Shown here in pieces: positions 6,333-60,662 of a stretch of 64,000 bases of DNA (positions within the stretch are counted from its first letter, which is position 1; the number at the start of each line of letters is the position of its first letter). A model generated the notes under the pieces. That model made no database searches and had not been told where the DNA came from. It saw only the letters and a list, made by a program, of their open reading frames with translations. This stretch comes from Ehretia macrophylla (taxonomy: Eukaryota > Streptophyta > Magnoliopsida > Boraginales > Ehretiaceae), in the NCBI GenBank assembly GCA_037974665.1, contig CM075778.1, positions 28,400,001-28,464,000 on the forward strand. Reading direction: 5' to 3'. A program made the translations under genes and the position numbers.

Positions 6333-6841
6333 AACTATGGATGGCTTTTTCATTGCTTATGGTGAAGGAAAATTGAAGGTCATGCTTGGTGATCCAGAGT
6401 TAATAATTGATGCGGTGAATCTGCATAATGATATCAATATTACTGATCAATTAATCTATTTGTTTCTTTAATTTAATTTTATTCCCTTCCTCACTTACTT
6501 TATTGCCTATAAATTTTCAGATTTTGGATATTTTATGACTAACATTCAATATTTGTTGCAAACTATAAATGTATCTTCATTTGAAGAACTTTTGAAGAGT
6601 ACATATTTGAATTATTAGAATTCCTTACAGATACCAGGTGATACGGTAGTGGATTTTATTCTTGCTATAATGGTCGCACATGCACATCAACTACCCCAAC
6701 CGCTCATTTATCATATTGGTTCTCGAAGGAATCCTCTAACTTATGCTGACCTTTACAAATTTGCCTTCAATTATTTCACAAAAAGTCCATGGACCAATGC
6801 TAGTGGAAAACCAGTGAAAGTCATGATATTTAAAATATTAA

Positions 6842-7169
6842 GGTAGCGATTGGTATATTGGAATGAATTTGGGCAGGAATGGAATGAACCAATGAATAGA
6901 ATGAAAGTGAGAATGAAATGAAGTTGGGAATGAGAATGATATGTTTGGTATGCTCTAGGAATTAAAAGTAGTAATGTGAATGACTTGTATAATATGACAA
7001 AATTTCCCTTTTATTATTATAACATTAAAAATAAAAATAAATATAAGCATAACCATAAATAATATAAACATAAATAATAATAATAATAACAAAATAAAAT
7101 AATAAATATTAAATATTAAATAATAATAATAATATTAACAAAATAAAAATAATATCAACAACAACAACA

Positions 7170-7226
<57 letters not shown>

Positions 7227-7863
7227 GTTATTATTATTTTATCATTATTATTTTTATTTTTTCTTTTTTATTTTTCTTTATTATTATTATAAGTATTTTT
7301 ATTATTATTTTAATAACTATTATTATTTTTTATTTTTGTTTTTATTATTATTTTATTATTTTTATTTATTATTATTATTATCATTTTTATTTTTATTTTT
7401 TTAATAATAATTATTATTTACATAATAATATTATATTATTTTTTTATTATTGTTTTTATTATTATTATTATTTAACTACTATTATTGTTTTTTATTTTTG
7501 TTTTTATTATTATTTTATTATTTTGTTTTTATTTTTGTTTTTATTTTTATTTTCATAATAATAATAATTATCATTTTTATAATAATTATTATTATATTTT
7601 TTAATTATTATTATTATTGTAAAATAAATTATTTACAAAAGTTATGCTATATAAGGGTATGATAGTCAAGTTTATTCTCAAACACATGAGAATGGGCTAT
7701 TCTCATGTATTTGGTCTGGAATTGATATTTCCATGTATGTGAGAATGAAATTCCCTTTGGAATGAGATTCCTAAATCCATTCCCTCATACCAAACATGAG
7801 AATTAAAATAAAATTGAGAATGTCATTCCATTCTCAACTTATTTTCACATACCAATCACTGCC
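6842..7863. mobile_element. Tourist-like (PIF/Harbinger) MITE in FAR exon 8
   Basis: Terminal inverted repeats GGTAGCGATTGGTAT and, on the other strand from the right end, GGCAGTGATTGGTATG. It is flanked by the 3-bp duplication TAA (6839-6841 and 7864-7866), the TWA-type target of PIF/Harbinger elements. The intact gene has the empty site in exon 8 near 33611. There is no transposase. The middle is almost wholly A/T with expanded TTA tracts. The homologous insertion at 54096-55057 is 60 bp shorter. Confidence 0.8.
7018..7625. repeat. TTA-type microsatellite and A/T low complexity
   Basis: A nearly pure (TTA)n run at 7171-7226, surrounded by mixed TTA, TTTTA and TAA units. Phenylalanine/isoleucine-rich open frames here are artefacts of composition. 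The counterpart at 54419-54463 has fewer units. Confidence 0.9.
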
Positions 7864-8670
7864 TAAGAACCATGGCTAGTTTTCGCAAACATTTCATGGT
7901 TCGTCTTCTACCACTAATGAAGGTCAGTTGTCATAATACCAAACTTTCTCTTTCATCACAAAGTAATATTAAACTTTCCAACCTCAATCATGTCTATTTA
8001 TTTGGATTGTATGTCATACATGATCCAAATTAGTCTTTTCATCACCAACATGTCCACTAAATAGTTCTTATTCTTTTATACAGAGTAGGATTTAGGATTT
8101 TTCTAAATAAGAACTAAAATTTATAATTTTTATATACATTTTTTAACTAAAAATATATACATATTTACTTTTTTTAAAAAGTACATTGAATTTTTAACTT
8201 TTTTGGGGCTAGTAGGTGCTGCAAACACATCCGCCATTGCTTTTATACGAGGTATATCCAAAATGTAAATAAATTTGATTAATAGCAGAGTCTTAGGAGC
8301 CATATTTGTCTTTTAGTTTCTTATTGATAATGGGCTTTGTAATATACGCCTTTACTATGTAAGTATTTTCTACGTAAAATTTCTATGTCCACGAAAATCA
8401 TTTTGAATAAATGATTTGTACATCTTTTTCTCCTTTTTCTTTTGTTGGTATACTTGTAATAAATAGATAGTCTCAAATTACTTCTCCCTACAACAAAGAT
8501 CAAACATTACAAGATACAAGTACATATACATCGTTTTGAAAGTTTCACCGTGTTTTTTGGAATAACTTGCACTTTGTAGTTGTAGGCACAATGATTTACA
8601 TATTTATTTTAATTTTCTTATAGGTATCAAAGTTGGTGAATATGGTATCTTGTCGACATTTTGAAGAGCA

Positions 8671-59000: not shown

Positions 59001-59968
59001 TATTCGATTGAGTACTGGCATAGGTGGTGATGTAAAGGCGGTGCCAACAATCAATCGTACAGTGATTAGGCTTTCCAAAAATCTGGCCAAAAATAGGGCC
59101 TTCAGAAGAAGAGAAGCCTTTGGACTGAGCTTGAGATGATGAATTCTGGTATCCACGACCAAAGTTACCACCTTTACCAGAGCCTCGATTGTTCCTTCCT
59201 CCACGAGATTGTTGTCTACCACGACTTCGCTGATTATTGCCAAAGTATGAGTCTTTTGAACAATTAGGGCAGAGTGAAAATCAGTAGTGACAGGCTCAGA
59301 GATTTTGAGTGAAGTAGACAACTGCAAGTATAATTCTTCAGAGAGAAGTAAGCTAGAGAGCTCAGCAACTGAAATCGGATATGATCGAACTCTAATTGAA
59401 GCTTTAAAAGCATCATATTCTGTAGGCAATCCTTTTAAAATATATAGAATCAAATCATCTTCTTTGATTGTTTCAGTGACATTAGCCAAATTATCAGTAA
59501 TCATCTTGACTTCATCAAGGTAAGATTGCATCGATTGTGAAGTCTTCGAAGGAGTACATAGTTTCATTTTAAGCTGATGAATATGAGATCGAGAGAGCGA
59601 ACTGAACCTTTTTCTAGAGCATTCCACACAGCCTGAAATATCCGCAGATGTAGTAATTGAGGTAATACCTGTGGCGTGATAGAGGCGAAGAGACATGTAC
59701 GAAGATGTTGATCAACTTGAATCCATGAGAGAAACGCTGGATTAGAAACAAGTTCAGCATTTTTGCTCTCAAGAAGCTTCGGTGGACACGGCAAGGTGCC
59801 GTTAATATGATCTAGAAGCTGTGTAGCTTCGAGAACTGCCTGCAACTGCGCTTTCCATAAGATATAGTTGGAGTTGTCCAACTTTATCGGAACAAGAGAG
59901 TTCATATTGTGGATAAAAAGACGCAGTCCTGACGGAAGATCAAAACTAGAAGTGGAAGTTGTCGCCAT
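56024..59968 (-). pseudogene. Copia gag-pol polyprotein relic (psi-3 element)
   Basis: GAG N-terminus at 59564-59968; shifted GAG frames at 58992-59696; protease and integrase at 58060-58992 (DTGANTHVTAD; FVDDYSRYAWIYPL; FFTDNGREFVN); a Ser/Thr/Pro-rich linker at 57575-57871; reverse transcriptase at 56400-57578, uninterrupted (RQLDVSNAFLHG, YGFKQAPRAWYQLLHA, VSVDDLVITG with Ser for the usual Tyr of YVDD); RNase H at 56024-56419 in another frame. Integrase stops at 58060-58062, where the third catalytic acid would be expected shortly after QNGRV. The psi-1 copy has a stop at the same spot. Sequence then passes from FLINRM straight toward the linker, so the integrase C-terminal part is probably deleted in both. 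Confidence 0.87.
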
Positions 59969-60087
59969 TAGAGATGATGAAAAAGGTTCGAAATTGCTGA
60001 TTTGCAGAAGAAAAAAAAATGAAGTTGTGCTTTAATGGCGGTTTGTGGATCGAAGAAGACAGAGGTCTTATAAGGCTCTCGATACCA

Positions 60088-60314
60088 TGATGAGATTTAG
60101 AGAATTTGAGAAAAAGAGCATTAGTGTTATATATTTCAGTCAGTACACAAAGAGCTATATATATATTGTTGATGTTACAATACAAGTGCTTATGACAGCT
60201 GTACAACTTATCACGTGCATTCACGTGCTTAAGCAACTAACTTTCTAACAATCTTCACACGCTTCTTTGAGCTTAGTTGAGCTAGCAGGAGCTTCATTAT
60301 GATGTGCTTTATCA
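60088..60314 (-). repeat. Copia 5' LTR, psi-3 element
   Basis: Orthologue of 12828-13054, with only about three differences seen by eye. Confidence 0.9.
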
Positions 60315-60662
60315 AAGCAACATAACAAACTCAAACGAAGTATGAATCATGTTATGCGTCTTGCAGAAGTTTACGAATCATTTGTGTTTTTTGAGGGAAT
60401 GTAATTCTGTATATCTTGTCAATATTTACTTTTAAAGATAAAATTTCTAAAATTTGATTTATCTTGTTGGAAGGAATTTTCATATTAATAAATACTTATT
60501 CTACACAGCTTTGATGATGCAAACACTGAGAAGTTGCTGATGATGATAGGAAAAGCCAACATCGATGTTGACATTTTATCGGTTGATTCAAAGAGCATTA
60601 AGTGGGAGGAATACTTTATGAGTACACACCTTCATGTAGTCAAAAAGTACCTAATGAAGTAA

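Follow-up and report, generated by a model that had tools for sequence, protein, structure and literature searches.

A tandem array of FAR genes and pseudogenes in Ehretia macrophylla, very probably built by duplication of gene–pseudogene blocks

A stretch of 64,000 bp from chromosome C15 of Ehretia macrophylla (C15:28400001-28464000; hereafter the window) contains an intact fatty acyl-CoA reductase (FAR) gene between two broken copies, psi-1 and psi-3, which share a 5' truncation and two transposon insertions. The window, taken from a genome of 1.58 Gb, covers about 1.5 units of a longer array, and this array very probably arose by repeated duplication of a gene–pseudogene block of ~44 kb made up of a FAR, a CACTA transposon and a broken copy (psi). 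Because the block is repeated five times, the matching damage in the psis was most likely copied together with it and did not arise twice.

The alternation of genes and pseudogenes is apparent in the surrounding region (C15:28290001-28584000; 294 kb without N), where all copies lie on the forward strand in the order b0, F1, psi, F2, psi, F3, psi, F4, psi, F5, psi. F3 is the intact gene of the window, and psi-1 and psi-3 follow F2 and F3, respectively. From F1 to F5, successive FAR starts are 43,618, 45,622, 44,030 and 44,024 bp apart; after the last psi, no further FAR exon was found up to C15:28584000. F2–F5 each encode 494 aa and differ at 1–6 residues, while F1 has lost one base of exon 3, leaving four of the five FARs in the block open. 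The first copy, b0, belongs to a second FAR type (type b). All ten of its exons are recognisable and it carries neither of the two insertions, but it has stops in exons 3 and 5, only partial matches for exons 4 and 8, and a split exon 10.

A preliminary description, made from the window alone, had placed one intact gene between two broken ones. This holds inside the window but is an effect of its boundaries, as the alternation comprises five FARs and five psis. The same description had implied a further FAR just to the left, and exon 10 of F2 indeed lies at C15:28399651-28399804. The F2 flank at positions 1-606 of the window is 3.5% diverged from the F3 3' flank and 10–11% from the psi flanks, so the window already shows FAR–psi–FAR–psi. 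F4, which starts to the right of the window at C15:28466310, had not been predicted. The array is a higher-order tandem repeat: a multi-part unit is repeated head to tail, and like parts are nearest to each other across units. FARs differ from one another by 0.25–4.1% and psis by 0–5.1%, as against 10–11.5% between FARs and psis in introns.

The three shared lesions, already noted in that description, lie at the same bases in psi-1 and psi-3, with the same target-site duplications (TSDs; Table 1). Both copies begin at one identical base of intron 6, fused to intergenic sequence. Comparison with the sequence downstream of b0 and with b0 intron 6 shows that the two parents of this junction have ATTG in common. 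Consideration of the 47 bp before intron 6 as filler DNA was abandoned, since this sequence is also found downstream of b0; the truncation join therefore has merely a 4-bp overlap. In F3, the equivalent of the truncation point is position 29283, in the spacer of an intron-6 inverted repeat (arms 28708-29256 and 29519-30063, 78% identical). A query across the psi breakpoint gave five full-length matches, one per psi, among the 40 scored of 131 candidates. The wording "identically damaged" went too far, however: psi-3 also lacks exon 7 and ~0.5 kb around it, and exon 8 of psi-1 has lost 3 bp.

The insertion in exon 8 is a PIF/Harbinger-like miniature inverted-repeat transposable element (MITE), a class recognised by terminal inverted repeats, TAA/TTA target duplications and the absence of a transposase. 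It is ~1.0 kb long, has the ends GGTAGCGATTGGTAT and (reverse-complemented) GGCAGTGATTGGTAT flanked by TAA, and the internal frames that reach 110 aa (139 and 121 aa) are of low complexity. The element in exon 9, ~4.4 kb long, is a Ty1/copia retrotransposon by its TG..CA long terminal repeats (LTRs), 5-bp TSD and rve domain ahead of RVT_2. Within one element, the left and right LTRs differ at 12–13 of 227–229 sites in all five psis; with slightly different LTR ends, the corresponding divergence in the two window copies is 6.1% and 6.5%. Same-side LTRs compared between psis differ at only 0–10 of 230–232 sites. Since same-side LTRs across psis are closer than the LTR pair within an element, the copia appears to have inserted once and to have been copied later.

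Table 1. Positions in the window of the FAR copies, their lesions and the associated transposable elements
Feature	Position	Strand	Remarks
3' flank of left neighbour FAR F2	1..732	+	F2 stop codon ends C15:28399804
CACTA remnant ahead of psi-1	757..3642	.	left end and ~340 bp of flank gone
psi-1 5' truncation breakpoint	3896..3899	+	ATTG common to both parent sequences (microhomology)
psi-1 (exons 7-10)	6333-13402	+	
psi-1 exon 7	6333..6414	+	97.6% to intact exon 7
psi-1 exon 8, interrupted by MITE	6631..7922	+	
PIF/Harbinger-like MITE, psi-1 exon 8	6842..7863	.	TSD TAA
psi-1 exon 9, interrupted by copia	8624..13140	+	
copia, psi-1 exon 9	8671..13054	-	LTR ~230 bp, TSD GAGCA, coding frame fragmented
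psi-1 exon 10	13249..13402	+	
Stretch 99.4% identical to unit 4	21592..64000	+	42.4 kb; unit 4 at C15:28465624-28508024
Intact FAR (F3 of array)	22280..35104	+	10 exons, 494 aa, domain matches
F3 exons 1-5	22280-22358, 22837-22940, 23234-23436, 23514-23614, 26131-26332	+	
F3 exons 6-10	27811-27972, 33114-33195, 33398-33667, 34715-34842, 34951-35104	+	
Ty3/gypsy in F3 3' flank	35908..45850	-	LTRs 2.46 kb, 2.9% apart
CACTA, between F3 and psi-3	46283..51748	.	CACTAC...GTAGTG ends
psi-3 5' truncation breakpoint	52001..52004	+	same point as psi-1
Exon-7 deletion scar in psi-3	53780..53820	+	common to psis of units 1 and 4
psi-3 (exons 8-10)	53882-60662	+	
psi-3 exon 8, interrupted by MITE	53882..55116	+	
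PIF/Harbinger-like MITE, psi-3 exon 8	54096..55057	.	same base as psi-1 site, TSD TAA
psi-3 exon 9, interrupted by copia	55818..60400	+	
copia, psi-3 exon 9	55865..60314	-	same base as psi-1 site, TSD GAGCA/AAGCA
psi-3 exon 10	60509..60662	+	

Divergence within the window gives the same grouping. Between psi-1 and psi-3 it is 2.4% in intron 6, 2.9% in exon 8a, 2.4% from exon 8b to 9a, 1.9% from exon 9b to the 3' flank, 1.9% in the outer 3' flank, 3.0% in the MITE and 3.5% in the copia. Between the psis and F3, the values for the first five of these segments are 10.3–11.3%, 6.2%, 11.2–11.5%, 7.8–8.5% and 5.6–6.3%. Moreover, where two copies agree against the third, the matching pair is psi-1 and psi-3 at 155 of 186 sites in intron 6 and at 80 of 96 from exon 8b to 9a. 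The segment just before exon 7, in which the sign is opposite (psi-1 vs psi-3, 19.4%; psi-1 vs the intact gene, 10.5%), was excluded because the psi-3 exon-7 deletion falls inside it and it is not homologous throughout. The claim that the broken copies are closer to each other than to the gene between them (1.9–3.5% as against 10–11.5% in introns) is thus borne out, and the outcome named in advance as contradicting it, psi-1 nearer to the intact gene than to psi-3, was not seen in the segment-by-segment divergence. In exons 7–10, the ratio of nonsynonymous to synonymous differences per site (pN/pS) relative to the intact gene is 0.26 for both window psis, and between psi-1 and psi-3 it is 0.38 (15 changes). 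These values suggest that the psi lineage was probably under constraint for part of its separate existence.

Relationships among the five units are nested. Five structural characters divide them, without conflict, into A (units 1, 3 and 4) and B (units 2 and 5), in the order A-B-A-A-B along the array. A units have a gypsy element in the FAR 3' flank, the psi exon-7 deletion and a copia of 4453–4468 bp; B units have a long insertion within intron 8 of the FAR, a deletion of the CACTA left end and a copia of 4387 bp. The nearest copy of psi-1 (B) is the unit-5 psi, at 0.93%, 0.65% and 1.36%, with 2.2% in the MITE and 1.55% in the copia. That of psi-3 (A) is the unit-4 psi, at 0.05%, 0 and 0.26%, with 0.83% in the MITE and 0.16% in the copia. 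As each has a nearer psi in another unit, psi-3 is not a plain copy of psi-1. The earlier proposal of duplication of an already broken block therefore needs to be divided: breakpoint, insertion sites, LTR pairing and divergence all agree with copying and not with independent decay, but the block is the ~44-kb FAR–psi dimer and not the psi alone.

The FARs themselves are mosaic. Over its first 5.7 kb, F4 is F5-like (75 of 82 informative sites); past a switch in intron 5 (C15:28471220-28471396) it is F3-like (133 of 142). F5 changes near C15:28515920 from F4-like (41 of 55) to F2-like (117 of 144). For F3 compared with F4 and F2, uniformity was also rejected, without a clean two-block pattern. 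The gene body of F1 is 3.9–4.1% from the other four FARs, but from exon 9 on it is 0.4–0.7% from F3 and F4. Given the F1, F4 and F5 mosaics, FAR genes have evidently recombined between neighbouring units, an outcome expected of unequal crossing-over or conversion.

These observations can be combined into a model of how the array arose. An ancestral FAR would have given two copies, one of which (type b) came to differ by ~10%. In the psi line, a deletion with 4-bp microhomology would have removed exons 1–6, so that intron 6 was joined to intergenic DNA lying behind the FAR before it; exon 8 would have received a MITE and exon 9 a copia, the model leaving the relative order of truncation, MITE and copia unspecified. 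The block FAR–CACTA–psi would then have been copied whole several times to give five FAR–psi pairs, probably by unequal crossing-over between misaligned units. As to the order of rounds, an A/B split may have been followed by doubling of the AB pair, after which one A unit gave rise to units 3 and 4. Plant substitution rates are 7e-9 to 1.3e-8 per site per year; if the host rate does not differ, the copia would be roughly 2–4 million years old, the A–B split roughly 1–2 million years, and the duplication yielding units 3 and 4 roughly a few hundred thousand years. These ages are rough because segments diverge unequally and the A-unit gypsy looks slightly older than the A–B split it should postdate.

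Several points weigh against this model. The psis of units 1 and 3 differ more than those of units 2 and 5 in four of five segments, so a single doubling of an AB pair is not cleanly supported. The gypsy is found solely in A units, and its LTR divergence of 2.9% is slightly above the A–B difference of 1.9–2.9% in psi gene segments. Between units, the CACTA copies (757-3642 vs 48859-51748) are 5.4% apart and the stretch 14691-15496 is 4.1%, as against 1.9–2.9% for gene segments; with CG/CHG transitions removed, the values are 3.9%, 3.9% and 1.5–1.8%. Given such uneven divergence, a single age misfits some segments. Exchange, too, has obscured the history, as follows from the contrast between the body and the 3' end of F1. 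For F4 and F5, none of 1000 permutations gave mosaic patterns as strong, a significance that is overstated because neighbouring informative sites are linked. The five units are read from assembled sequence. Finally, variation among the psis is somewhat lower at exon sites than at intron sites (20 of 546 vs 52 of 859; P 0.048).

The last of these points, together with the presence of a psi in all five units read, would fit psis that are kept for a function, as a source of small RNAs or as a recombination anchor for FAR dosage. However, the exon changes that separate the five psis (14 nonsynonymous, 6 synonymous) are compatible with neutrality (P 0.21), and retention of the psis is expected anyway since units are copied whole; we regard such a function as unlikely. 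That the units are alleles or mis-joined copies produced by assembly or haplotype duplication, with no real array, seems quite improbable. Divergences of 0.6–4% do lie within the range of plant alleles, but five successive units with nested relationships go beyond a pairwise duplication, the units carry large insertions and deletions of their own, and the 294 kb without N lie within a 38.8-Mb contig. Moreover, the 40 exon-10 matches on one chromosome described below, at 90–100% identity to the query, are too numerous and too diverged for alleles.

Gene conversion could in principle have spread the damage among tandem FARs that already existed, with no block being duplicated, and the F1, F4 and F5 mosaics attest that exchange between units does occur. 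Yet colinear shared sequence of more than 40 kb spans the whole FAR, intergenic DNA and transposons, and the unit spacing is regular, which makes conversion a rather implausible account of the array as a whole. Independent decay, with each psi separately truncated and struck by the same two elements, has no observation in its favour and is practically inconceivable: it would have to produce three lesions at identical bases with the same target duplications, and same-side LTRs that resemble each other more across copies than the two LTRs of one element do.

The five-unit block is part of a larger FAR cluster. An exon-10 query gave 53 candidates, of which 40 were scored; all 40 lie on C15 at 28.125–29.882 Mb (1.76 Mb; 16 on the forward and 24 on the reverse strand) with 90–100% identity to the query, and ten belong to the block. 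A search with the NAD_binding_4 profile (143 of 165 candidates scored) gave 71 matches. Of these, 58 lie on C15 at 28.12–29.92 Mb (by profile position, 32 exon-6-type and 26 exon-3-type), and the remaining 13 on C1, C5, C8, C9, C17 and C19. Long-frame matches on C5, C9 and C1 were dropped as FAR candidates; one is an RHM-type sugar dehydratase (92%, Cinchona). Two reverse-strand copies are open. The one at C15:28716350-28724104 has proper splice sites, 87% protein identity to F3 and a pN/pS of 0.27, and the one at C15:29727924-29735570, with a pN/pS of 0.33, has no AG ahead of exons 3 and 8 as placed. Compared with each other, they have a pN/pS of 0.47. In the second copy, AT precedes exon 8 as placed (C15:29729924); likewise, F1 has AT in place of AG before exon 8 as placed (C15:28343917), where F2–F5 have AG.

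In the human RCCX module, a block carrying CYP21A2 and CYP21A1P, gene and pseudogene likewise occur in tandem with exchange between units, but the RCCX genes are unrelated and the modules fewer. Among FAR families, that of Ophrys sphegodes has also grown by local duplication, with 16 homologues, six of which share 109 kb of a single scaffold; elsewhere the paper puts the expanded family at 29 genes (PMC11282089). Here, there are 40 scored exon-10 matches, including pseudogenes, in 1.76 Mb, and the unit is a FAR–pseudogene dimer, of which the portion of the Ophrys text consulted makes no mention (PMC11282089). Rice FARs are similar in being NAD_binding_4 plus FAR_C proteins with 6–10 exons, but, according to the part of the source consulted, rice has eight FARs without tandem duplicates, unlike the array described here; Arabidopsis also has eight (PMC11013768). 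Drosophila FARs are described, in the part of the account consulted, as evolving by birth and death, with unstable clades gaining and losing copies, including pseudogenes (PMC6546124); here duplication takes in entire composite blocks, and dead copies increase in number along with the rest. Tandem duplication, exchange and birth-and-death evolution are well-known processes, and it is the scale and clarity that stand out. A literature search by title and abstract opening found no description of the array, which does not show that it is unpublished.

If each psi were counted as a death of its own, the tally would be five, although probably a single loss was multiplied by block duplication. Through their nesting and their shared transposons, the units clearly document the growth of a plant gene array. 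The open FARs of the array may be expressed as fatty-alcohol-forming reductases, with the psis as inert passengers, and the size of the cluster makes it a candidate source of unusual wax or fatty-alcohol chemistry in this plant. More tentatively, and with considerable doubt, one may picture a FAR mega-array specific to this lineage, with no fewer than 40 exon-10 matches (including pseudogenes) in 1.76 Mb of one asterid chromosome, that is being actively amplified in ~44-kb gene–pseudogene units. This growth would be under selection for the dosage or variety of fatty alcohols, and the broken copies would be carried along and perhaps offer homology for further unequal exchange.

The gene model of F3 agrees with the preliminary description in its ten exons and extent. 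All nine introns are GT-AG, and the reading frame is uninterrupted with a single, terminal stop. The protein matches NAD_binding_4 (PF07993; 232.6 bits, cut-off 20.1) followed by Sterile/FAR_C (PF03015; 58.2 bits, cut-off 35.4). Plant FARs are marked by the Rossmann motif TGxxGFL and by YxxxK, and the translation contains TGATGFL and YTFTK. Among 120 relatives listed, the nearest full-length one is a Davidia protein (59% identity). This protein, like those nearest to the gypsy pol and to the RHM-type gene, suggests an asterid host. In a comparison with 104 of these, picked by length, F3 keeps 95 of 103 near-invariant positions, and its eight departures tie with the most deviant relative. On this evidence, F3 appears to be a divergent but open FAR.

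Intron 2 of F3 contains a 36-bp duplicate of part of exon 3 (23173-23208; 89%), which is absent from the list for F1 and is also listed for F2, F4, F5 and b0. An ORF fragment at 31846-32221, in an intron-6 stretch absent from psi-1 and psi-3, had no match in a Pfam search; by eye, its start resembles a plastid transit peptide, and it may be a captured gene fragment.

As for the other transposable elements, the gypsy site is unoccupied in the F2 flank (1-732) and in the flanks of both window psis. Intron 8 of F2 (C15:28390200-28398900) and that of F5 hold an 8.8-kb insert, 96.9% alike in the two copies, which contains pieces of movement protein and reverse transcriptase and resembles an endogenous pararetrovirus. 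The CACTA element between F3 and psi-3 has the termini CACTACAA...TTGTAGTG, 3-bp flanks ATT/ATC with one mismatch, and a Transpos_assoc match (PF13963; 62.1 bits) at 47205-47972 on the reverse strand. The remnant ahead of psi-1 matches the full copy at its right end (GTAGTG at 3642 and 51748), with 757-3642 aligning to 48859-51748. The full copy also contains an 87-bp minisatellite at 50270-50508.

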